A stretch of DNA of 64,000 bases from Serratia quinivorans (GTDB taxonomy: Bacteria; Pseudomonadota; Gammaproteobacteria; Enterobacterales; Enterobacteriaceae): contig NZ_CAMKGL010000003.1 of assembly GCF_946227985.1 (NCBI RefSeq), positions 186,001 to 250,000 of the forward strand. Reading direction: 5' to 3'. Below, piece by piece: positions 37,719 through 48,149 of the stretch. Both the position numbers and the translations under genes were made by a program. The notes beneath the pieces were generated by a model, which worked only from the letters and a program-made list of their open reading frames with translations, was not told the DNA's origin and made no database searches. Every line of letters starts with the position of its first letter. Positions within the stretch are counted from its first letter, which is position 1.

Positions 37719-38573
37719 ATGGTGCTGATGATTGTCAGCGGCCGTTCCGGTTCAGGGAAATCCGTCGCCTTGCGGGCGCTGGAAGACATGGGTTTTTACT
37801 GCGTTGATAACCTGCCCGTGGTACTGCTGCCGCAGCTTGCCAATACGCTGGCGGAACGCAATAGCTCCGCTGCGGTAAGCATCGACGTACGTAACATGCC
37901 GGAATCGCCGGAAGTGTTTGAATATGCGATGACCCAACTGCCGGACAGCTTTTCGCCACAGTTGCTGTTCCTCGATGCCGACCGTAATACGTTGATTCGC
38001 CGCTACAGTGATACTCGCCGTCTGCATCCGCTATCGAGCAAGAACCTGTCGCTGGAAAGCGCCATCGATGAAGAGAGCGACCTGCTTGAGCCACTTCGCT
38101 CCAGGGCCGATCTGATCATCGATACCTCAGAAATGTCAGTGCATGAACTGGCCGAAATGCTGCGTACCCGCCTGTTGGGCAAACGCGAGCGCGAACTGAC
38201 CATGGTGTTCGAATCCTTTGGTTTCAAGCACGGTATTCCAATCGACGCCGATTATGTCTTCGACGTACGCTTCTTGCCTAACCCGCACTGGGATCCGAAA
38301 CTGCGCCCGATGACCGGTCTGGATAAACCCGTCGCCTCGTTCCTCGATCGCCACACTGAAGTGCACAACTTTATCTACCAGACCCGCAGCTATCTCGAAC
38401 AATGGTTGCCTATGCTGGAAACCAACAACCGCAGCTACCTGACGGTCGCCATTGGTTGTACCGGCGGTAAGCACCGTTCAGTCTACGTGGCAGAACAGCT
38501 GGCCGACTACTTCCGCTCACGCGGCAAAAACGTGCAGTCACGCCATCGCACGCTGGAAAAACGCAAACAATGA
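37719..38573 (+). CDS. rapZ: RNase adapter protein RapZ
   Basis: A 284-residue protein with Walker A GRSGSGKS (8-15) and a C-terminal RNA-binding domain ending [11 protein letters not shown]. RapZ binds the sRNA GlmZ and presents it to RNase E, which tunes GlmS and so glucosamine-6-phosphate supply. The central [21 protein letters not shown] is highly conserved. A 4-bp overlap couples it to npr. Confidence 0.97.
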
Positions 38574-38842
38574 CGGTCAAACAAACGGTTGAAATCAAAA
38601 ACAAGCTGGGTATGCACGCACGCCCGGCGATGAAGCTGTTTGAGCTGGTGCAGAGCTTTGATGCCGAGGTGATGCTACGCAACGACAGTGGCACCGAGGC
38701 CGAGGCCAGCAGCGTGATTGCGCTGCTGATGCTGGACTCCGCGCAGGGGCGTCATATCGAAGTGGAAGCCACCGGCCCGGATGAAGCGAAAGCACTGGCG
38801 GCGGTGATCGAATTGATCAATTCCGGTTTTGACGAAGACTAA
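38570..38842 (+). CDS. npr: PTS-Ntr phosphocarrier NPr (PtsO)
   Basis: A 90-residue HPr-like protein with phosphorylatable His16 ([10 protein letters not shown]) and the expected Ser region further on. It relays phosphate from PtsP to PtsN. It overlaps the rapZ end by 4 bp and is followed by a terminator. Confidence 0.97.
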
Positions 38843-38847
38843 AGAGT

Positions 38848-38873
38848 CAGGTGCGCTACATGCTGCGCACCTG
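38848..38873 (+). terminator. Hairpin terminating npr
   Basis: The perfect 9-bp stem CAGGTGCGC/GCGCACCTG (38848-38856 with 38865-38873) lies in the short gap between convergent genes. The T-run after it is short (CTTTA), so efficiency may be modest. Confidence 0.65.
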
Positions 38874-38897: not shown

Positions 38898-40814
38898 CTA
38901 TATCCGGCTTAAACAGTCCAGCGCCACCGCCTTGAAGCTGTCGAAATTGTCACTGCCCAACAGGCGACTCATCGAACGTTCGCGCACAAAGGTGACGAAC
39001 AGATCGTAGATTGCCATCGCCTCTTCGTAATCGCTCTTACTGATCGCCAGCAGGAAAATCACGTGAGCAATTTCACCCTCCCCCCAGACCACCCCCTGTG
39101 GTGCCAGCAGCGTCACCACGACGGTTTTTTTCGCCAGCAACCCCAGCGAGTGCGGCAATGCTATCCCTTCACCCAGCAGGGTGGAAACAATCGCCTCGCG
39201 CTCCACCACCGAAGGATAAAAATCATCGCCAACATAGCCTTCGCGTTCAAGCTGGCCGCACACCTTCTGGAACAATTCCGCCTGGGTCAGCGGCTCGTTG
39301 ACCAACATAAAATGCTCGGCGTCGAAGAACTTCTCCAGCATATAGGGCTTGGTGCGATCCACCAGCACCAGTTTGCCGAGCTGTTCGAGCTGGTATTCGG
39401 TCGGGAACGGCGACATGACCACCACCGGCTTGTTCTTTTCGCTAACCCGCGCATTGGAAATAACGAAGTCTTCGTCGATATGGCTGAGTACCTCGTAATC
39501 ACGCAGTGAAACGATGCGCGTCATCACCAACTGCGGGTATTTGCGTGCGATCTGCGCCTGGATCATCCGCACCGTCGAGTTACCGGTATCGCACACCAGC
39601 ATCACCTGCGGATGTCGCTCATAGCCGATGTTGTAATGCCGCTCCAGCCCAACGCCAATGTGCAGTACCAGATAACCAATCTCGTTTTCACTCAGGGTGT
39701 AAGGCGTGTATTTCCCCCAGCTGGAGACCGCGGCCAACGTCACGTCATAGGCCATCGGGTAGTGCTGTTTAATGTTCGCCAGCAGCGGGTTGGGGATATT
39801 AATCTGGTATTTCACCCGGGTGATCATGGTCTTGATATGGGTCAGCAGATCGGCACGCAGCTGCTTGTCACCCTGCAGATTGTAGTTATAGTGCGCATTG
39901 ATATACGACAGAATGTAATCTACCAACGCTTCTTCATCGTCGGCATTGATCTCGGTCGGTTGCACCTCCTGCACCCGCCGCGCGGCGATGTTCACCCGCA
40001 GGTAGGCCTCTTCCGCTATCGATATCTCTTTGCCACTGGCTTTGCGCAGTTCCCCGGCCAGCCAGGTCGAAACCTTGCGCACCGCGTCATCCCCGTCCTC
40101 TACGTCAAAGTCCGGCAGCGGATAACCATCGGTAATACGTCGCAGCGCCACTGCACAATAGAAAATCAGATACTGCTCACCTTCGTCCGTCAAACGAATG
40201 GCATATTGCGACAGCAACGGATGCAGCAAACCGGCAAAGGTCACCACCTGCGGTTGCCGCAGGATCTCATTGTTGAGCAGCGGATTTTCGGCATCGGCCA
40301 GATGCAATTGGAATAACAGATCGGTCAGACAGGCGCGGATCGCCATCTCCGAACCAAACAGCTTCATGCCGTAGCGCGGTTTGGTTTCAATGGTCAATTG
40401 GTAGTGCGCCAGACGCTCTCTTACCTCAGCCATGTCGTTTTGCAGCGTGCCACGGCTGACAAACCATTCATCGGCTAAATCTTCAAGTTTCAGAGAAAAG
40501 GCTGAGGTCAGAAAACGAATCAGCAAATAGTGCACCCGTTCCTGCGCGCTGCGTGGCGTGGCGTGTTTTTTACGTTCCTGATGTTGCAGGGCGCTAAACA
40601 GTACGGCGTCATCGACCTGCAGGCGATAACCCGCCCCACGGCTATGCACAAAGTGGGCACCATAGTTTTCCAGAATATCGTTCAGCGCGGTGATGTCGGT
40701 GCGCACGGTTCGGGTGGAAACAGCGAAGCGCTTCGCCAGCTCTTCCTGTGGCAAAGTCTCTGACTGCAAAGCATCAAACAGATAGGCCAAACGCGGGTAG
40801 GGAAATCGCACCAT
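38898..40814 (-). CDS. MtlR/LicR-type PRD transcriptional regulator with EIIB and EIIA domains
   Basis: A 638-residue regulator. An N-terminal HTH (EELAKRFAVSTRTVRTDITA, about 24-43) and a second HTH/Mga-like unit (LADEWFVSRGTLQNDMAEVR, about 113-132) are followed by PRD1 (about 180-280), PRD2 (about 290-400), a GatB-like EIIB domain with Cys408 (VCDTGNST) and a fructose-type EIIA domain with His555 (GIALPHS). PRD2 has both phosphorylatable histidines (His326, His385). PRD1 reads YCAVALRR where a His is usual, so it may not be phosphorylated at that site. It is last in the catabolic operon, 50 bp after the lactonase, and is its likely PTS-responsive activator. Confidence 0.9.
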   Translation of the reverse strand: MVRFPYPRLAYLFDALQSETLPQEELAKRFAVSTRTVRTDITALNDILENYGAHFVHSRGAGYRLQVDDAVLFSALQHQERKKHATPRSAQERVHYLLIRFLTSAFSLKLEDLADEWFVSRGTLQNDMAEVRERLAHYQLTIETKPRYGMKLFGSEMAIRACLTDLLFQLHLADAENPLLNNEILRQPQVVTFAGLLHPLLSQYAIRLTDEGEQYLIFYCAVALRRITDGYPLPDFDVEDGDDAVRKVSTWLAGELRKASGKEISIAEEAYLRVNIAARRVQEVQPTEINADDEEALVDYILSYINAHYNYNLQGDKQLRADLLTHIKTMITRVKYQINIPNPLLANIKQHYPMAYDVTLAAVSSWGKYTPYTLSENEIGYLVLHIGVGLERHYNIGYERHPQVMLVCDTGNSTVRMIQAQIARKYPQLVMTRIVSLRDYEVLSHIDEDFVISNARVSEKNKPVVVMSPFPTEYQLEQLGKLVLVDRTKPYMLEKFFDAEHFMLVNEPLTQAELFQKVCGQLEREGYVGDDFYPSVVEREAIVSTLLGEGIALPHSLGLLAKKTVVVTLLAPQGVVWGEGEIAHVIFLLAISKSDYEEAMAIYDLFVTFVRERSMSRLLGSDNFDSFKAVALDCLSRI

Positions 40815-40864
40815 TCACTTTCCGTCATTAAGGTGCCCGCCTGGGGAATCAGGCAGGCAAAGGG

Positions 40865-42079
40865 TTACTTCACCACCGGCAAGAACACCATTTGCGAAGG
40901 GCTGCCCACCGGCGTATAGCCTTCAACAAAGCTGAGTTTACCGCTGGCCTTATCCACGCCAAAGCGGGTGACGTTATCGCTGCGTTGGTTCATTGCATAC
41001 AGATAATGGCCGTCCGGGCTTAGCGTCAGGGATCGTGGATAATCGCCGCGCGTCCAGGTTTCCGCCACCGCGTGCAACTCGCCATCGCTGCCGACGCTGA
41101 ACTGCGCGATGCTGTTATGTAGCCGGTTGGCAACATACAGATTTTTGCCGTCTGCGCTCAGAACCAGCCCGGCGGCGAAGTTGGTACCCTTATAATCGGC
41201 AGGCAGCGAAGAAACAACATGTAACTGTTTCAGAGTCCCTTTTTTGCTGTCAAAACGGTAGCTGGTCAGCGTAGAGGCCTCTTCATTCACCAGCAGCACA
41301 GTTTTGCCGTCCGGATGGAAGACAAAGTGACGCGGGCCGGCACCAGCAGAAGATGCGGCGACCCACGGTGGATCGTTCGGCGTCAGTTGGCCACTGGCAT
41401 CGTCAAAGCGCCACTGGTAGATCCGATCCAGCCCCAGATCGGTAGAAAACACAAACTTGCCGCCAGGATCGCTGGCGATCATATGCGCATGCGGCCCGTT
41501 GTGATCGCTGATGGCAAAACTGCCTTCCACCGCACCTTCCGGCTTGCCGGCACCTGCGGGCCCTTGCTGTTGCTGTACCGAGCTGGCGTTACCCAGCTTA
41601 CCGTCACTCTCCAGCGGGAAGGCCGCCACGGTGCCACTGACGTAGTTCGCTACCAGCAGATAACGGCCATTGGGCGTCGGAGAAAGATAAACCGGCCCCG
41701 CGCCTTGTGAATCGACCTGATTAAGCTGCGTCAGGCCGCCATCGGACGGATTGATATGGTAGGCAATAATGCCGCCGTGTTTGGTGCCGTTAAAATCCGC
41801 CACTTCACTGGCAACATACAGCGTCTGACCTTTGGCATCCACGGTAAGCTGTGCCGGATTGGCCTGCTTGCTGACCAGCGTTCTGGCGCTTAACGCACCG
41901 CTGGCCGAATCAACCTGCACCCGGTAAACGCCTTCACCGTTGGGGTTGTAGGTACCGATATAAGCAAAATGAGATGACGTAGATTTCATTGCATCCTCAG
42001 CATGCAGCACCGGGCTGGTCATCGCCAGTAGCGCCAGGGTTAACGCGGTGCGTAGGGTTGGAGACTGCCAGTTTCGCAT
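40865..42079 (-). CDS. Exported lactonase-family beta-propeller protein
   Basis: A 404-residue protein with a signal peptide (MRNWQSPTLRTALTLALLAM...VLHA, cleavage near residue 27) and the seven-bladed propeller of the 6-phosphogluconolactonase (Pgl/YkgB) family. Blade repeats include FAYIGTYNPNGEGVYRVQVD, ISDHNGPHAHMIASDPGGKF, GAGPRHFVFHPDGKTVLLVN and DYPRSLTLSPDGHYLYAMNQ. Cytosolic Pgl has no signal peptide, so this copy should act in the periplasm, probably on an unphosphorylated sugar lactone. Its place behind the aldolase suggests it opens the lactone form of the operon's substrate; that is inference. Confidence 0.85.
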   Translation of the reverse strand: MRNWQSPTLRTALTLALLAMTSPVLHAEDAMKSTSSHFAYIGTYNPNGEGVYRVQVDSASGALSARTLVSKQANPAQLTVDAKGQTLYVASEVADFNGTKHGGIIAYHINPSDGGLTQLNQVDSQGAGPVYLSPTPNGRYLLVANYVSGTVAAFPLESDGKLGNASSVQQQQGPAGAGKPEGAVEGSFAISDHNGPHAHMIASDPGGKFVFSTDLGLDRIYQWRFDDASGQLTPNDPPWVAASSAGAGPRHFVFHPDGKTVLLVNEEASTLTSYRFDSKKGTLKQLHVVSSLPADYKGTNFAAGLVLSADGKNLYVANRLHNSIAQFSVGSDGELHAVAETWTRGDYPRSLTLSPDGHYLYAMNQRSDNVTRFGVDKASGKLSFVEGYTPVGSPSQMVFLPVVK

Positions 42080-42101
42080 AGTTATCCTTATGATAGAAAG
42101 C

Positions 42102-42120
42102 GGCGCGGAATGCCCGCGCC
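42102..42120 (-). terminator. GC-rich hairpin between aldolase and lactonase genes
   Basis: The stem GGCGCGG/CCGCGCC with a 5-base loop lies in the 92-bp gap, followed on the minus strand by GCTTTCTATC. It could reduce readthrough into the lactonase and regulator genes or protect upstream mRNA. Confidence 0.4.
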
Positions 42121-42171
42121 TGTGGATACAGAGCCTGTCGCCTCCCTGCCTTACGTCATCCGATAATGCGT

Positions 42172-42912
42172 TTACCCGACCAGTTTTTTGGTGATTGCCA
42201 GCAGAGTTTTAACGTCCTGCGGGCGAGTGTTGCCAGTAGCGGAGTCGATGATGGAGCTGTAGATATGTGGGATCACCCGTTTCACACCCGCAGCCAATGC
42301 GATCTCGACGATCGGCTCGAAGTTTTCCAGATCGATGCCGCCGGTCGGTTCCAGCATAAAGTCATGTTCGGCGCAGGCCTGGGCCACATACTGGTATTCT
42401 TCTTTGCATGCCAACCCGCCCATCGGGAAATATTTGATTGAGCTGCCGCCCATGTCTTTTAACAGGGCAATGGCGGTTTCCACAGGCACAATGCCGTCCG
42501 GTGCCGCTGCACTCAGCGGGCCGGTTGAGATCTTCACCCAGCCAACGCGGCCGGTAGGCGATACCAGGCCGTTGACCACGCTGTCATTTTGGCCCAGCAG
42601 CGCACGGCTGGCACCGACACCGGTAAACACCTGGTTTACGTGTTGCGGCTGCACCTGCTGAGAAATCAGGCTGACCATCGCCGATTGTTTCGGATCCCCC
42701 GCGCCCAGCCCCACTGACAGCGCATTTTCAATCAGCCGCGCATAGCGCTGCATGTCTGCCACCGCGCTGTCGACGTCCGGGTAGTTCTTGGACAGAACGC
42801 CCACCAGCACATGCCCTTCCGCCGCCGAATAAATGTCCTGCGCATTGTCTTTCGAGCCGGCCAATACGTTGAGGCACACGCGATCGCGATAGTAGTTAGG
42901 GTGCAGCTTCAT
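42172..42912 (-). CDS. KDGP aldolase (DgaF-like, EF_0839 family)
   Basis: A 246-residue aldolase-barrel protein related to DgaF, which splits 2-keto-3-deoxygluconate-6-phosphate into pyruvate and glyceraldehyde-3-phosphate. The likely Schiff-base lysine is Lys160 (GGSSIKYFPMGGL), and FMLEPTGGID and AAGVKRVIPHIYSSIID match the family. It overlaps the ammonia-lyase gene by 4 bp, so the keto acid made by that enzyme is probably its substrate. It differs from the usual Eda trimer family in length and N-terminus. Confidence 0.87.
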   Translation of the reverse strand: MKLHPNYYRDRVCLNVLAGSKDNAQDIYSAAEGHVLVGVLSKNYPDVDSAVADMQRYARLIENALSVGLGAGDPKQSAMVSLISQQVQPQHVNQVFTGVGASRALLGQNDSVVNGLVSPTGRVGWVKISTGPLSAAAPDGIVPVETAIALLKDMGGSSIKYFPMGGLACKEEYQYVAQACAEHDFMLEPTGGIDLENFEPIVEIALAAGVKRVIPHIYSSIIDSATGNTRPQDVKTLLAITKKLVG

Positions 42913-44027
42913 GCTTGTTTCTCCGTGAACAGATTTTTAATACAGGTGAAGACGGTCATCAGCTGTTGCTGATCAACGCTGCGCACATCCACTTCAATCT
43001 TGCCTTCGTTAGCCTTATAGCCGCGGAAGTAGATGGCGATAGCGCCGGTTTTCAGCGCCTGCACGATGTCGTAGGTCGAATGCCCCAGCACCGCTTCGTC
43101 AAAGGTGATCTCTGCCCGCGCAATATCACGGCCGGCACTGTCCCAGACGGTTTTAGCGCTGATACCGGTCAGGGTGTTCAGGCTGTCGATAAACGGCGTC
43201 ATTCTTTCCACCATTTGTTGACCGGTGGTTTTTTCCAACGTCAGATAGCTTTCGATCGCCTGCGTCAGGCCGAGAATGCCTTCTTTGCCCACTTTCATCG
43301 CCCGGCCGATGCCGCCGGACTGCAGCTTCACCCACTCGACGTATTGCTTCTTGCCGATCACCAACCCGCTGGTGGGGCCTTCGATGGCTTTGGCACCGCT
43401 GTAAATAACCAGGTCGGCCCCCATCTGGTAGTAGCACAGCAAATCTTCTTCCGCGGCGGCGTCGACGATCAGTGGCAGGTTATGCTTACGCGCCACCACC
43501 ACCGCCTGCTCAACGGAAAGAATGCTTTTCTGCACGCAGTGGTGCGACTTGATATAGAGAATGGCGGCGGTCTGCGGCGTGATGCAGGCTTCGAGCTGCT
43601 CGGCAGAACACTCGTTGGCATAACCCGCCTCGACCACTTTGCCGCCCCCCAGCGCCACCATGGTGTCGACCGGTGCGCCGAAGTTGACGTTATGGCCACG
43701 CGGCAACACGATTTCCCGCGGTACGCTAATCGGCGCAGAGTGCAAATTCACCAGCAGGTTGGCGTTGTCTTTAACGATCAGTGCCGCCACCGACTGGGCG
43801 ATACCTGCCGAGGCGCAGGAAACGATCACCGCATCTTCGACATTCAACAGATTGGCGATATAGGCCCCGGTCTTGTCGACCAGATCCTTGATTTCAAAAT
43901 AGTGATTCAGGCCGTAGTCAACCGCGTCAATGACGTCCTGACGCGGCGTGGATACGCCAAGCATGGTCATGCGACCTGACGTATTAATGACCTGTTTTAA
44001 ATTATATTTTTCATAAATCGAAGACAT
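42909..44027 (-). CDS. PLP-dependent DgaE-type ammonia lyase (SelA-related)
   Basis: A 372-residue fold-type I PLP enzyme of the SelA-like family to which DgaE (D-glucosaminate-6-phosphate ammonia-lyase) belongs. The PLP lysine is Lys213 (YSGAKAIEGPTSG), with Asp189 in LIVDAAAEED upstream and the SCASAGIAQS phosphate-binding region near 70-79. By family it deaminates a 2-amino-2-deoxy-aldonate-6-phosphate to KDGP. The ATG at 44027 has AAGGGA ahead; an upstream ATG at 44045 is possible. It overlaps the amidohydrolase gene by 17 bp. Confidence 0.87.
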   Translation of the reverse strand: MSSIYEKYNLKQVINTSGRMTMLGVSTPRQDVIDAVDYGLNHYFEIKDLVDKTGAYIANLLNVEDAVIVSCASAGIAQSVAALIVKDNANLLVNLHSAPISVPREIVLPRGHNVNFGAPVDTMVALGGGKVVEAGYANECSAEQLEACITPQTAAILYIKSHHCVQKSILSVEQAVVVARKHNLPLIVDAAAEEDLLCYYQMGADLVIYSGAKAIEGPTSGLVIGKKQYVEWVKLQSGGIGRAMKVGKEGILGLTQAIESYLTLEKTTGQQMVERMTPFIDSLNTLTGISAKTVWDSAGRDIARAEITFDEAVLGHSTYDIVQALKTGAIAIYFRGYKANEGKIEVDVRSVDQQQLMTVFTCIKNLFTEKQA

Positions 44028-45150
44028 GAGCGGCTTTCCCTTCATCGGTTAATAGGATTTCCCCGGCCACCACCGCGGCCAGCGGAACCAGCAACTGTTG
44101 GCCGGCTGCCGATTGCCCTTCTGAATCGGCAAAAACCTGCGGCCCCTGGCGGAGATCAAAAAGGGTGAAATCGGCGTCGCAACCCACTTCGAGCCGGCCC
44201 TTATTGACCAGGCGTAGCGCCGACGCGGCATTCTCAGTCACGCAGGCGATCACCTGCGGCAGCGACAGCCCGACGCTGAAGAATTTGGACATCACCGTCG
44301 CCAGGCTGTGTACCGGCCCGGCCATACGGTTGCGGCAGTAAATATCGGAACTGATGGTATGTGGCAAAATGCCCAAGGCAATCGCCTGCCGGGCGACCTC
44401 AAAGCTGAAGCTGGCGGTTCCGTGGCCAACGTCGAGCAACACACCGCGCTGCAGCGCACGCTGAATAGACTCACGCAGCGTGCCCGCCGGAGTCAGGATA
44501 CGGTTTGGCTTGCCGTTGTAGCAGTGGGTGATAATGTCGCCACGGGTCAGCAGATCGGCTATCTCATCGAGATCCGGTGGGTTATTGCCGATATGCACCA
44601 TCAGCGGCAATTGGTTATTTTCCTGTTGGATCTCTTTGGCAAGCACCAGCGGCCGGGTGCCATTCTGGCCGACCACGCTGCTGCTCATGCGCGCCTTGAT
44701 GCCAATGATAAAACCCGGGTGTTCGCCTATCGCCTGGCTGACTTTCTGCTTGTCGATATCGGCCAGGTCTGCCAGTTCGTTCTGTCGCAGCAGACCGATG
44801 CGCGAAATATTCAGGAAGGCAAAAACGTTGGTTTTCGCACGGCGCGTCAGTGCATAAAACGTATCGACATCGTCAGTGCCGGTGCTACCGGCGTCGACCA
44901 CCGTGGTGACGCCACAGGCGGTGCCGACCAAATCCGGTTCGTCATGGTAAATCGGCGAAGAGGGGTAGCAATGCACGTGGGAGTCGATCCAGCCGGCACT
45001 CAGGTGGTGATTGCCCGCCAGATCCCATTGCCGATGAGCGCGAACGTCTTCAGCCAGTTGCCCGACCTCGGCAATCTTGCCGTCCTGAACCGCCAAATCG
45101 ACCAGTCGGTCATCCGCCAGTCTGGCGCGTCTGATTACTAAGTCATACAT
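44011..45150 (-). CDS. Amidohydrolase/deacetylase-family metallohydrolase (EF_0837 type)
   Basis: A 379-residue amidohydrolase-superfamily enzyme. The binuclear metal ligands are visible: His58 and His60 (DSHVH), the carboxylatable Lys152 (IIGIKARMSSS), His186 (LMVHIGNNP), His209 (IITHCYNG) and Asp269 (ISSDIY). This set fits the dihydroorotase/N-acyl-amino-acid deacylase branch. By context it should remove an acyl group from the amino sugar acid before deamination. It is upstream of and overlapping the ammonia-lyase gene. Confidence 0.87.
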   Translation of the reverse strand: MYDLVIRRARLADDRLVDLAVQDGKIAEVGQLAEDVRAHRQWDLAGNHHLSAGWIDSHVHCYPSSPIYHDEPDLVGTACGVTTVVDAGSTGTDDVDTFYALTRRAKTNVFAFLNISRIGLLRQNELADLADIDKQKVSQAIGEHPGFIIGIKARMSSSVVGQNGTRPLVLAKEIQQENNQLPLMVHIGNNPPDLDEIADLLTRGDIITHCYNGKPNRILTPAGTLRESIQRALQRGVLLDVGHGTASFSFEVARQAIALGILPHTISSDIYCRNRMAGPVHSLATVMSKFFSVGLSLPQVIACVTENAASALRLVNKGRLEVGCDADFTLFDLRQGPQVFADSEGQSAAGQQLLVPLAAVVAGEILLTDEGKAAHVFDL

Positions 45151-45212
45151 ACTGCGTCACTCCTTTTCAAGCCGGGGAGCGGCATACCGCTCCCCAACAA
45201 TCACAATCGCAT

Positions 45213-45866
45213 TTAAGCGATGGCTACCGGGAAAATAGCCCCTAACAGCATCGCCCCGAGGATCGCCCCACCGGTGATTGGCTTATTCCAGATATAGAAC
45301 AGCAGTGCGCCGAGCAGTGAACCAATGCCAATCGGAATCGAAGCGGTCATCGCCGACAGAATGATCAACGGCCCCAGGAAACGCCCGGAAGAGTTACCGG
45401 CCCCCATCATCACGTCCGCCCCGTAGGTGGAATTGCTTTGGTTGATGGTAAATTTACGCGCCAGAATGATCAGGTAGCCAATCGCCAGACCAATCACCAG
45501 GCCGGTGATGAGTGAAGCGGCAAAGTTGGCAACCGGGAAGATAATGCCGGCCCCGAGCAACAGTGCCGGCACTCCCAGACCTACACCGGTCTGGATTGCA
45601 CCGCCGATGTCCAGGATCCCCACCAGTGAGCCTTCGATGATGCGCGCAAACAGGAAGCTGGCACCGAATGCCGCTACCGCACCATAAACGCCGGTATCCA
45701 TTCCGGCCCGCAGCATGGAAACGAAGGCCACTTCGTTAAAGGCACCGATGCCGTACAGGTAGTACATGTGGGTCCCGGCGAACACGCCGGACGAGAGCAG
45801 GCCAACAAAAATCGGGAATGACCAGTCGGCATACCAGAAGCCTTTTTGGGTTTGTTCTTCCATCAT
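45213..45866 (-). CDS. DUF4310 membrane protein (EF_0833/AHA_3914-like)
   Basis: A 217-residue polytopic protein with about six membrane segments (FPIFVGLLSSGVFAGTHMYY, FGASFLFARIIEGSLVGILD, VPALLLGAGIIFPVANFAAS, LITGLVIGLAIGYLIILA and two near the C-terminus). It carries glycine-rich turns (GAGNSSGRFLGPL). I recall it as part of a conserved neighbourhood of unknown function; a transport role is inferred. Two adjacent ATGs are possible (45866 and 45863); GGAG spacing favours the second. It lies 8 bp after the DUF4311 gene. Confidence 0.85.
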   Translation of the reverse strand: MMEEQTQKGFWYADWSFPIFVGLLSSGVFAGTHMYYLYGIGAFNEVAFVSMLRAGMDTGVYGAVAAFGASFLFARIIEGSLVGILDIGGAIQTGVGLGVPALLLGAGIIFPVANFAASLITGLVIGLAIGYLIILARKFTINQSNSTYGADVMMGAGNSSGRFLGPLIILSAMTASIPIGIGSLLGALLFYIWNKPITGGAILGAMLLGAIFPVAIA

Positions 45867-45874
45867 CCAGCTCC

Positions 45875-46651
45875 TTATTTACCGCTCAGGGTATTGTGAA
45901 TGGCATCCAGCCAGCCCGGCACGCCAAGGCTGAAGGACTCGAGGACTTTCATGTCGAAGCCGCGGAAGAAACCGCTCAGCACGAACAACAGCACGATCAC
46001 GGCCATCATGATCTTGGTGATTTTGTTCCAGCCGCTCTCTTCCACGCCTTTACCGATCAGGATGCCCAGCACCAGACCCGGTACGGCGTTGCCCATGATC
46101 AGCTGCGCCAAACCGCCAAAGATGGTGCCCCAGAAACCGGAGCGACGCCCGGCGTCGATCGCCGCCAACCAGAAAATCACCGGCATCACGGTGTTCACCA
46201 GCAGGTTAGCCGCCGGTACCAACACTTTAATCGCCGTGACTTGCAGTGCAGCAGGCACTGCTGAAGCGGTGGTGTTAAGGAAAGCCACCACCAGCATGCC
46301 AATGATGCCGCACGCGATAGCCATTTTTTTCGGATCGTGCAGCGTTTGCGCCAGGTTGCGGTTTTTGACCATCAGCGCTGCCGCACCCCAGTGTGGGATA
46401 ATGCGGTGGTCAACGTCCTGCGTGAAGGCACCTGCCGCCACGGAAGACGCCCAGGCGTTGAAGAAGAAGCCCAGACCGAATGAGAAGTGGGAAGCCGGAT
46501 CGCCCTCGCAGGAGTTCAGCTCGCCCAAGGTACGGAAAGCGCCCATGCCCTGGGTGGTCGGGGCATGGAACATGCGTGCGGCGCCGGCCCCTACGCCAAC
46601 CCCCACCAGTCCGCCGATAATAAGCGACTTAAATAAGATGATTAAAAACAT
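45875..46651 (-). CDS. DUF4311 membrane protein (EF_0832/AHA_3913-like)
   Basis: A 258-residue polytopic protein. The N-terminal helix LFKSLIIGGLVGVGVGAGAA is followed by the loop RMFHAPTTQGMGAFRTLGEL, then several helices (MAIACGIIGMLVVAFLNTTA, LLVNTVMPVIFWLAAIDAG, MMAVIVLLFVLSGFFRGFD). The loop NSCEGDPASHFSFGLGFFFN is polar between two hydrophobic parts and may line a substrate path. It probably pairs with the DUF4310 protein as the permease of the operon. No similarity to a classical PTS EIIC was recognised by eye. Confidence 0.85.
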   Translation of the reverse strand: MFLIILFKSLIIGGLVGVGVGAGAARMFHAPTTQGMGAFRTLGELNSCEGDPASHFSFGLGFFFNAWASSVAAGAFTQDVDHRIIPHWGAAALMVKNRNLAQTLHDPKKMAIACGIIGMLVVAFLNTTASAVPAALQVTAIKVLVPAANLLVNTVMPVIFWLAAIDAGRRSGFWGTIFGGLAQLIMGNAVPGLVLGILIGKGVEESGWNKITKIMMAVIVLLFVLSGFFRGFDMKVLESFSLGVPGWLDAIHNTLSGK

Positions 46652-46681
46652 CAGTATACCCTTTGATTTATGCTAACGTTT

Positions 46682-46978
46682 TTATTTCGTGACGAAGACA
46701 ACTTTTTCTGTGTTGATGATTGTCACGTTCACGGTTATTTCCAGAGTAACGGAGTAGTTTTTTCTTTCGCGCGGAAGAAAGAAAAAAAGAAACTTTTCTT
46801 TTGTTATTTTCTCTTCCGCTTTTAATACGCTGACATCCTGCGGTTCAATACGCAGCAGAATATTACTGGTGGATTTTAATACCGCGCCCTGCACGTTGGC
46901 CAAAGCGGAAGCAAAAGCTTTCGCTTTGCTGTCGCCTTTACCCTCCACCTTTACCGACGTTGTATAGTGTTCTTTCAT
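46682..46978 (-). CDS. DUF4312 small soluble protein (EF_0831/AHA_3912-like)
   Basis: A 98-residue cytosolic protein without a signal or membrane helix. It alternates helix (SKAKAFASALANVQGAVL) and strands (ILLRIEPQDVSVLKA, NYSVTLEITVNVTIIN) and has a basic, aromatic patch (KEKFLFFFLPRERKNY) in the middle. Function unknown. Its start overlaps the stop codon of the SFCGS gene by one base, so the two are made together, probably as partners of the DUF4310/4311 permease. Confidence 0.85.
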   Translation of the reverse strand: MKEHYTTSVKVEGKGDSKAKAFASALANVQGAVLKSTSNILLRIEPQDVSVLKAEEKITKEKFLFFFLPRERKNYSVTLEITVNVTIINTEKVVFVTK

Positions 46979-47343
46979 TACGGATTGCCGTGTTTTTTAA
47001 CGTAGGCCTCAACCAACCTTTGTCCCAGCTCTTCTTTATCCATAAAACCGAAACCTAATACGGTGCAGCCTTCGTTAATTGCCGTCACGCCTTCATCAAT
47101 CGAGCGCATGCCGTATTTAGCTTTATAACCGTATTTGGTCTGAGCGGTAATTGCCCCTGCACCGCCGCTGCCGCAGAAAGAAATGCCCAACTGCGCGCCT
47201 TCCGCTTTCATCACGTCGCCCAGCTTCATATCCGCCGCCACGCCAGGGATAACAATGGCTTTTCCGCCTGCATTTTCAATGCCCTGACCTACTTTCTGAC
47301 CTTTACCCAAACGATCGCCAATCACTACAGTAATCTGACCCAT
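46978..47343 (-). CDS. SFCGS glycine-rich protein (EF_0830/AHA_3911-like)
   Basis: A 121-residue soluble protein with an N-terminal Rossmann-like strand-loop (MGQITVVIGDRLGKGQKVGQ) and the family motif ISFCGSGGAGAITAQ with Cys57. A cysteine followed by a glycine/serine-rich loop recalls the phosphocysteine loop of PTS EIIB domains, but here it is mid-protein, not at the N-terminus. Function is unknown; a phosphocarrier or ligand-binding role is only a hypothesis. It is second in the operon. Confidence 0.86.
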   Translation of the reverse strand: MGQITVVIGDRLGKGQKVGQGIENAGGKAIVIPGVAADMKLGDVMKAEGAQLGISFCGSGGAGAITAQTKYGYKAKYGMRSIDEGVTAINEGCTVLGFGFMDKEELGQRLVEAYVKKHGNP

Positions 47344-47378
47344 GGTATTTTCTCCTGATTAAATTAGTTCGTTAACAG

Positions 47379-47726
47379 CTATTGGTTATTATCTTTTGCC
47401 ACTTCAAAATGCACGGAAAGTAAATAAGCTTCTTCGATAGGTAAAGTTGCAAACTGCCCCACTACCCGCTCGGCCATTTGCATTGATTCCGCCGAAATTT
47501 CATCAAACAGTGATTTATCGACTTCCGGTAATGGCTCACCGGTTATTGAACGTAGCACCATGGCACGAATATGCGACTCCAGCATCTGTTGCTGTACCGC
47601 GTTGGTATAAATACCCTCGGCGTTTAGCATCTCGGTAATACCTGCCAGCACCTGTTCGGTGATTGTCCCGGCCAGGCTGACATCGGGTTGCTCACTATTT
47701 TCTATCGCAACAGATCCATCATTCAC
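47379..47726 (-). CDS. Stand-alone PRD-domain protein (EF_0829/AHA_3910-like)
   Basis: A 115-residue protein consisting of little more than one PTS regulation domain. The two PRD histidines are present: His53 (MLESHIRAMVLRS) and His109 (EEAYLLSVHFEVA). There is no DNA- or RNA-binding domain. It is the first gene of the operon, while a full PRD regulator is the last, so it may buffer or relay phosphorylation to that regulator. Function unproven. Confidence 0.83.
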   Translation of the reverse strand: MNDGSVAIENSEQPDVSLAGTITEQVLAGITEMLNAEGIYTNAVQQQMLESHIRAMVLRSITGEPLPEVDKSLFDEISAESMQMAERVVGQFATLPIEEAYLLSVHFEVAKDNNQ

Positions 47727-48149
47727 TTTTCAGTACCCCTAGATCCAAACATGATTCGGTCAATTGCACGGCATCACCTGAATAACCCGCCTTCTCTGAT
47801 GCCTTTACCCTAACCCCGGGGAGATTTTCTGTGTAGCCTGTTTTTTTCCAGTTGGAAGTGGAAATTCAGTGACCGTCAGGGATCCATTTCGCAAAATAAG
47901 CATTTGCCAGATAATTCAATTAAATTACAAAAAGATAACGCCACAAAGTGTTTCCAGCTCGCCCGGCGACGGTGAAAAGCTTCGTGATCGGGATCTCTTT
48001 CTTTTCCCCGCTTAACCGCCTACTATCGGTAAGACAATTCGACATCAACAACACCCCCGCTCCTCTGGCGCGGGGGTGTTGCTTTTGTGCTGTTTTTCCG
48101 AATTTATGGGCGCGTAACCTGACGCCCTTTGATTTGACTGGAGAGTGGA
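47727..48149. promoter_or_regulatory. Divergent control region between the catabolic operon and rnk
   Basis: This 423-bp region holds the presumed minus-strand promoter of the ten-gene operon and the plus-strand promoter of rnk. An inverted repeat TTTCCA-N8-TGGAAA at 47845-47864 is a possible operator. A loose plus-strand promoter is TTGCCA, 16-bp spacer, TACAAA, near 47905-47932. A strong plus-strand terminator lies at 48049-48085 (separate entry). I found no convincing CRP or sigma-54 site. Confidence 0.4.
48049..48085 (+). terminator. Strong terminator upstream of rnk with no recognised gene before it
   Basis: A perfect 12-bp stem, CAACACCCCCGC (48049-48060) with GCGGGGGTGTTG (48070-48081), is followed by CTTTTG and a later TTTTT run. 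It sits about 70 bp before rnk on the same strand. It could end a small RNA starting near 47935 or act as an attenuator in the rnk leader. Confidence 0.75.

Follow-up and report, generated by a model that had tools for sequence, protein, structure and literature searches.

How an N-acylated amino-sugar acid could be taken up and broken down by way of 6-phosphates when no sugar kinase is encoded beside the enzymes is the question raised by a locus of Serratia quinivorans. The window, i.e. the whole stretch of 64,000 nucleotides analysed here (contig NZ_CAMKGL010000003.1, positions 186,001 to 250,000), contains ten open reading frames (ORFs) at 38898-47726, all on the minus strand, and the ten-gene operon described in an initial annotation of this DNA was thus found in full (Table 1). 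Eight of the ten proteins, encoded by adjacent genes, exceeded the curated NCBIfam cut-offs (TIGR03577-03583 and TIGR01437), which bore out the claim that these eight families form a recurring cluster; the family names themselves state no function. We tentatively read the operon as serving the phosphotransferase system (PTS)-fed uptake, as a 6-phosphate, and the breakdown of an N-acyl 2-amino-aldonic acid, likeliest N-acetyl-D-glucosaminate.

The gene set was compared among DUF4311 relatives, of which 494 were confirmed; the best 80 of the 494 loci, nearly all from Enterobacterales and two of them betaproteobacterial, were used for synteny. Two of the 80 ended at a contig edge before the enzymes, and all nine core genes were present in 77 of the 78 loci that reached both the aldolase and the regulator, the sole exception (L045) being a sequence that begins inside the SFCGS gene. 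The nine genes were also found in two Bartonella records, one Klebsiella record and one Enterococcus record, where the E. faecalis copy starts with the regulator and has three inserted genes. As the set recurs in all of these, it is not a product of chance, and the expected conservation of the neighbourhood across genomes was confirmed. The operon unit is the eight family genes plus the regulator, and the lactonase is facultative. The lactonase gene, whose product has an apparent Sec signal by eye, lay between the aldolase and regulator genes in only 34 of the 78 loci; the protein was thus accessory and not the integral pathway step it had been taken for.

The identities between the window and Bartonella/E. 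faecalis proteins were highest for SFCGS (77/72%), DUF4311 (74/68%) and DUF4310 (73/71%), followed by the pyridoxal phosphate (PLP) enzyme (65/56%), the amidohydrolase (57/45%) and the aldolase (67% to Bartonella), and were lower for the regulator (49/22%), DUF4312 (48/47%) and the small PRD protein (37/30%). DUF4311 was 100% identical in five relatives (S. grimesii, S. liquefaciens, Serratia sp. and two S. proteamaculans). It exceeded its cut-off in 14 of 148 genomes of the order, and matches to the DgaE model above 360 bits were obtained in 15 genomes, namely these 14 and G403, whose locus (L131:7284-11158) was a decayed operon remnant with no detectable membrane genes; genome G403 also had no KdgK above cut-off. 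In one genome (G166), the operon studied here coexisted with a true dga operon carrying mannose-PTS genes, suggesting that the two are not interchangeable. The conservation of residues described below was computed from tblastn matches with at least 75% query coverage and a length within 25%, after removal of internal stops and identical sequences; the sets differ by gene and comprise 64 to 164 sequences.

The encoded enzymes fit, as judged from their families, a sequence of deacylation, deamination and aldol cleavage. The aldolase passed the DgaF equivalog NF047796 (389.5 vs 300 bits) and matched PDB entry 3lm7 with 425 bits. The DgaE-like PLP enzyme of the initial annotation was indeed a member of the DgaE family but not DgaE itself, as it failed the DgaE equivalog NF047797 (369 vs 600 bits). 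The residue roles reported for DGL comprise the phosphate-site Arg301, Arg332 and Arg346 along with active-site His (PMC9529869), and the three Arg were matched by R303, R334 and R348 of the window enzyme in the alignment to 7lc0. This triad was kept in 81 of 81 PLP-enzyme sequences; of the two active-site His, one was kept in 80 and the other in all 81. Two Rhizobium homologues linked to ABC transporters had Cys at the third triad position and not at the other two. PDB entry 8t7j is a second structure in the DgaE family. The closest PDB matches of the amidohydrolase were 8wzy (577 bits), a close orthologue called dihydroorotase, and 2ics (350 bits); a text search of the accessible literature found no paper naming 8wzy or 8t7j. 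Its residues H58, H60, K152, H186, H209 and D269 were kept in at least 98% of 82 sequences. This combination of an HxH motif, Lys, two His and Asp is what we take to be the ligand set expected of a binuclear metal site. Relatives of the Atu3266 type reportedly cleave acyl-(R)-acids, and an argument from substrate stereochemistry was set aside. The families and the conserved Arg triad together supported the previously suggested route from an N-acylated amino-sugar acid to KDGP (2-keto-3-deoxygluconate 6-phosphate) and on to pyruvate and glyceraldehyde-3-phosphate, and we infer that the substrate is probably N-acetyl-D-glucosaminate. A link to chitin lytic polysaccharide monooxygenases as the source of the substrate was not supported, since LPMO_10 was present in 6 of the 14 DUF4311 carriers vs 32 of the 134 other genomes (Fisher p=0.19).

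The trio of amidohydrolase, DgaE-family enzyme and aldolase was also found together with other importers, which were the lactose-type IIB, IIA and EIIC with MupG in C. difficile, IIB and EIIC with MupG in Niallia, and a GntP gluconate:H+ symporter in Priestia. The replacement of the membrane genes by GntP in the last case supported the view of the initial annotation that an acid is imported. The small PRD protein, SFCGS, DUF4310-4312 and the regulator were undetected in all three swapped stretches, and the plasmid records of swapped clusters contained no DUF4311. The lack of PRD and SFCGS there indicated that both travel with the importer, and this joint absence and the high identities of SFCGS, DUF4311 and DUF4310 suggest that the two proteins belong to it. 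The E. faecalis cluster contained the DUF genes plus an EIIC and MupG. All four clusters, of C. difficile, Niallia, Priestia and E. faecalis, encoded a PfkB kinase; the best models for those of C. difficile, Priestia and E. faecalis were 2-keto-3-deoxygluconate (KDG) kinase types, below their cut-offs, and the Niallia kinase was 75% identical to that of Priestia. A screen of 98 sequences, namely the window and 97 loci, detected a KDG-kinase-like gene in 4 of 98, only in those four Bacillota clusters. None was found in two mannose-PTS dga loci or beside the 92 DUF-only sequences, which comprise the window and 91 loci, some of them truncated by a contig end. By this screen, a kinase gene goes with those importers through which the acid would enter without a phosphate of its own, and none accompanies the DUF-only or mannose-PTS importers. 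The absence of a kinase from the operon, singled out earlier as the key gap, is both real and informative.

We infer transport, phosphorylation and the route of the phosphate as follows. The exported lactonase, where present, would open a lactone in the periplasm, and DUF4311 and DUF4310 with DUF4312 would form a membrane importer. HPr would donate phosphate to His52 of the small PRD protein, from which it would pass to Cys57 of SFCGS acting as an EIIB-like carrier of RpiB fold, and the imported acid would arrive as the 6-phosphate, the phosphate ultimately coming from phosphoenolpyruvate (PEP). The amidohydrolase would then take the acyl group off, KDGP would form as the DgaE-type enzyme releases ammonia and would be split by the DgaF-type aldolase into pyruvate and glyceraldehyde-3-phosphate, with the PRD-EIIB-EIIA regulator presumably sensing the phosphorylation state.

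The residues relevant to such a relay were well conserved. His52 and His106 of the small PRD protein were present in 78 of 78 distinct sequences, and the regulator kept H326 and H385 in its PRDs and C408 in its EIIB domain in 79 of 79 sequences, and H555 of the EIIA domain in 78 of 79; an EIIB-like CDTGNS motif was recognised by eye at Cys408. In regulators of the MtlR/LicR type, the PRD and EIIA His and the EIIB Cys are, we assume, phosphorylatable. On two Bartonella plasmids, an EI gene annotated as ptsP directly followed the regulator gene (L082:8047-10062 and L083:15405-17420), and the domains scanned in one plasmid identified it as an HPr-EI fusion. The HPr-EI genes of bat Bartonella adjoin type VI secretion genes. 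All 16 genomes tested had an EI above cut-off; members of this order are expected to have one, and the result shows possibility only.

SFCGS had been described as one of two small proteins acting with the membrane genes, and this has to be corrected to a protein of the RpiB/LacAB fold, as isomerases of this fold were the top structural matches among those listed. The fold assignment is new here. Cys57 aligned with the RpiB catalytic cysteine, presumably Cys66 in the E. coli enzyme, and was kept in 163 of 164 SFCGS sequences, the remaining one having a gap. Two further features of RpiB, assumed here to be the functional residue His99 and the phosphate-binding C-terminal Arg residues, were not found: the alignment placed the variable N90 at the His99 position, and the SFCGS chain stops before the Arg region. 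SFCGS thus resembles RpiB, LacA and LacB in fold and Cys position, but is shorter, lacks both of these features and is encoded beside membrane genes. A classical EIIB seems less likely, because none was among the listed structural matches.

DUF4310-4312 most likely constitute an importer in the membrane that belongs to none of the known families, as far as can be read from their sequences. The AlphaFold2 model of DUF4311 was helical (predicted local distance difference test score, 72.9). DUF4311 and DUF4310 matched no other Pfam family convincingly, and no PTS family at E up to 1 was listed for 87 members of the former or 82 of the latter. Several candidate relationships found no support. Identity with the mannose-PTS IIC/IID or with YhfT and kinship between the two proteins were not borne out by hhalign (best E, 0.06), and a likeness of DUF4310 to YhfT (E 0.0019, probability 14.5%) disappeared with a broader alignment. 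The matches of DUF4311 to DUF2232 (77 of 87 members, best 0.0017) and a single one to TrpP (0.0024) look like membrane-composition matches. Other genomes gave two weak partial matches to DUF4311, one of which (L093) was a DjlA-like protein by eye.

Several observations weigh against PTS-fed uptake as the 6-phosphate. The kinase pattern is confounded, as the kinase clusters seen were all from Bacillota and the DUF-only ones all from Pseudomonadota; the sole control for phylum is one kinase-free mannose-PTS cluster of Bacillota, and of the several Bacillota carriers of DUF4311 the screen covered E. faecalis only. The small PRD protein, the proposed phospho-donor, is among the least conserved components, and its low identity and that of DUF4312 speak against a tight role. 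The E. faecalis regulator is without the EIIA His, and the Bartonella plasmids count as one observation because they are 98.9% identical over 9,900 bases. The role of EI and the PRD parts could be purely regulatory. The DUF4311 model matched no solved fold, and no sequence relation of DUF4311 or DUF4310 to EIIC was found. It is possible, though we consider it improbable on balance, that DUF4310-4312 and SFCGS form a non-phosphorylating importer, either a secondary transporter or one energised in another way, with the acid deacylated and deaminated unphosphorylated, KDG phosphorylated late by a chromosomal KdgK, and the PTS parts being regulatory. The lack of an EIIC relation favours such late phosphorylation, as do the KDG-kinase-like genes of the four sister clusters, which imply that these enzyme families allow for it, and the presence of KdgK above cut-off in 12 of 15 carriers. 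The three carriers with no KdgK above cut-off were G418 (a single contig), G458 and G392 (75% complete), however, and G418 and G458 are rated 100% complete with all nine genes matching near full-length in a single piece. The conserved DGL phosphate-site Arg residues and the HPr-EI gene beside the Bartonella operon, possibly regulatory as it is, also argue against late phosphorylation. The Arg triad was nevertheless rejected as proof of early phosphorylation and does not date that step, because the enzymes of C. difficile, E. faecalis and Priestia, which come from kinase-bearing clusters, have it too.

Two other alternatives concern the role of SFCGS and the nature of the substrate. SFCGS may be a soluble RpiB-type isomerase or C2 epimerase that acts on the acid after import, with Cys57 as the base, in which case only DUF4310-4312 would transport. 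The fold, the Cys at the RpiB catalytic position and the many invariant polar residues, found also outside the Cys loop, are as expected of an enzyme and count against a carrier. We regard an enzymatic role as quite unlikely, since the His99 position is variable, the C-terminal Arg region is absent, SFCGS was detected in none of the three trio clusters using other importers, and its conservation equals that of the membrane proteins. As for the substrate, it is somewhat doubtful that it would be a different acid, N- or O-acylated, or a disaccharide containing one, for example derived from peptidoglycan or glycosaminoglycan. MupG, of the 6-phospho-N-acetylmuramidase family, accompanies a PTS EIIC and the trio in three Bacillota clusters, and ef0834 is listed in a NagY regulon that includes hylA; on the other side, the DgaF equivalog passed by the aldolase points to a KDGP-type substrate, and the GntP symporter suggests a monomeric aldonate.

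The uptake and breakdown proposed for the operon most closely recall the Salmonella dga operon for D-glucosaminate utilisation (DgaABCDEF), which shares the tandem of a DgaE-family ammonia-lyase and a DgaF-type aldolase as well as the conserved DGL Arg residues. The dga operon has mannose-PTS IIABCD, in place of which the window operon has DUF4310-4312 and SFCGS; no IIABCD was found in a Pfam scan of the ten window proteins, and IIC and IID were absent from the 80 related loci. The window operon also differs in its amidohydrolase, of which none was detected in two dga-type loci, in its PRD-type regulator, as opposed to the LevR-like one of dga, and in a PLP enzyme below the DgaE equivalog cut-off. 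It is a member of the TIGRFAM cluster EF_0829-EF_0839/AHA_3910-3917, containing all eight families, to which the SFCGS fold, the accessory lactonase and the importer swapping are added here.

The E. coli yhf operon shares a homologous small PRD protein (YhfY), a small protein with Cys in a glycine-rich loop (YhfU) and a membrane gene (YhfT), and has other enzymes. YhfY matched the small-PRD family at 1.6e-6, below cut-off, and at 4.2e-7 by profile comparison; His52 was present in 6 of 6 sequences and His106 was not kept. Cys52 of YhfU (DUF2620) was invariant in 17 of 17 sequences, 9 of the 17 matched PRK09273 (best 0.0019), and the alignment of SFCGS and YhfU ran along the full length, weakly (hhalign E 0.0038, probability 9%). 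No relation of YhfT to DUF4311 or DUF4310 was found by hhalign. Among the literature matches listed for YhfU, YhfT and YhfY, the titles and abstract openings indicated no functional study of the E. coli proteins. A Listeria locus (L160:892-8431) encoding an antiterminator, an ascorbate-type PTS, a phosphotriesterase, a creatininase, a distant KDGP aldolase and a sugar isomerase recalls the yhf gene set. It is rather unlikely, in our estimate, that SFCGS, PRD and DUF4310-4312 represent an independently evolved PEP-dependent group translocation with an RpiB-fold EIIB and the PRD as EIIA, of which YhfT/YhfU/YhfY would be a second example.

Full-text searches, which covered few subscription journals, found no paper on DUF4310, DUF4311, DUF4312 or SFCGS, as judged by titles, and no match to TIGR03577, TIGR03579, TIGR03580, PF14187, PF14188 or PF14272. 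Three papers on E. faecalis touch the operon in their accessible parts: EF0839 and EF2975 are described as eda-like genes possibly tied to amino sugars and fitness (PMC7701990), the ef_0839 or ef_2975 promoter turned up in urine (PMC2912369), and ef0834, the EIIC of the operon by its position, is named as a gene that the N-acetylglucosamine antiterminator NagY targets directly, or as part of an operon so targeted, under N-acetylglucosamine induction (PMC12502629). These parts assign no function to the operon. A role would thereby be assigned to five families known by DUF, glycine-rich or PRD labels in Serratia, Klebsiella, Yersinia, Pantoea, Aeromonas and Enterococcus, and partner genes instead of sequence would identify a recurrent importer. 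If the acid is indeed phosphorylated on import, the system would represent a phosphotransferase permease of a new type. N-acetyl-glucosaminate is predicted to be usable as a source of both carbon and nitrogen, and the same assay makes the orphan yhf operon of E. coli testable.

Table 1. Genes of the operon and candidate control sites, in window coordinates
Feature	Position	Strand	Evidence
Small stand-alone PRD protein (EF_0829/AHA_3910 family), first gene	47379..47726	-	TIGR03582, 128 bits vs cut-off 69
SFCGS protein, minimal RpiB/LacAB fold, invariant Cys57	46978..47343	-	TIGR03577
DUF4312 small protein	46682..46978	-	TIGR03578, PF14189; no conserved His/Cys (77 sequences)
DUF4311 integral membrane protein, candidate translocation subunit	45875..46651	-	TIGR03580, PF14188
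DUF4310 integral membrane protein, candidate translocation subunit	45213..45866	-	TIGR03579, PF14187
Amidohydrolase (EF_0837 family), proposed N-deacylase	44011..45150	-	TIGR03583, 539 bits
DgaE-family PLP ammonia-lyase	42909..44024 (start 44045 or 44024)	-	TIGR01437, 591 bits
KDGP aldolase, DgaF type	42172..42912	-	TIGR03581 and NF047796, above cut-off
Exported 7-bladed lactonase, accessory	40865..42079	-	PF10282, 344 bits
PRD-EIIB-EIIA regulator	38898..40814	-	HTH_11, Mga, PRD, EIIB-like, EIIA_2
Terminator-like stem between aldolase and lactonase genes	42102..42120	-	Consensus scan
Terminator-like stem downstream of regulator gene	38848..38873	-	Consensus scan
Upstream motif TTTTGCGAAATGGATC, candidate control site, common to relatives	47881..47896	-	12-mer comparison

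The gaps between the genes, from first to last, were 35, -1, 30, 8, 62, -35 or -14, -4, 92 and 50 bases, the sixth depending on which of the two possible starts of the PLP enzyme is used. The 92-base gap, with a terminator-like stem, separates the lactonase gene from the aldolase gene; the consensus scan for such stems gave 21 sites in the region vs 11.4 expected in shuffles. The 12-mers of the upstream motif, allowing at most one mismatch, were found in 10 of the 23 upstream regions compared. An HPr-family gene at 38570-38842 of the window (G000:C3:224576-224821) ends just short of the regulator gene and faces it; inspection by eye places it after rpoN, hpf, ptsN and rapZ in an NPr-like arrangement. 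Among the related loci, the KDGP aldolase frame was interrupted and unannotated in the E. faecalis record (L084:18582-19325), and the start of the aldolase gene was partly duplicated upstream of an intact copy in another (L135:7397-7468). Extra ORFs lay between the aldolase and regulator genes on the strand opposite to the operon at L025:14669-15991 and on the same strand at L136:4168-6383. The copy in S. rubidaea NCTC12971 (L018:10786-17500) gave many split matches, reflecting sequencing errors or decay.

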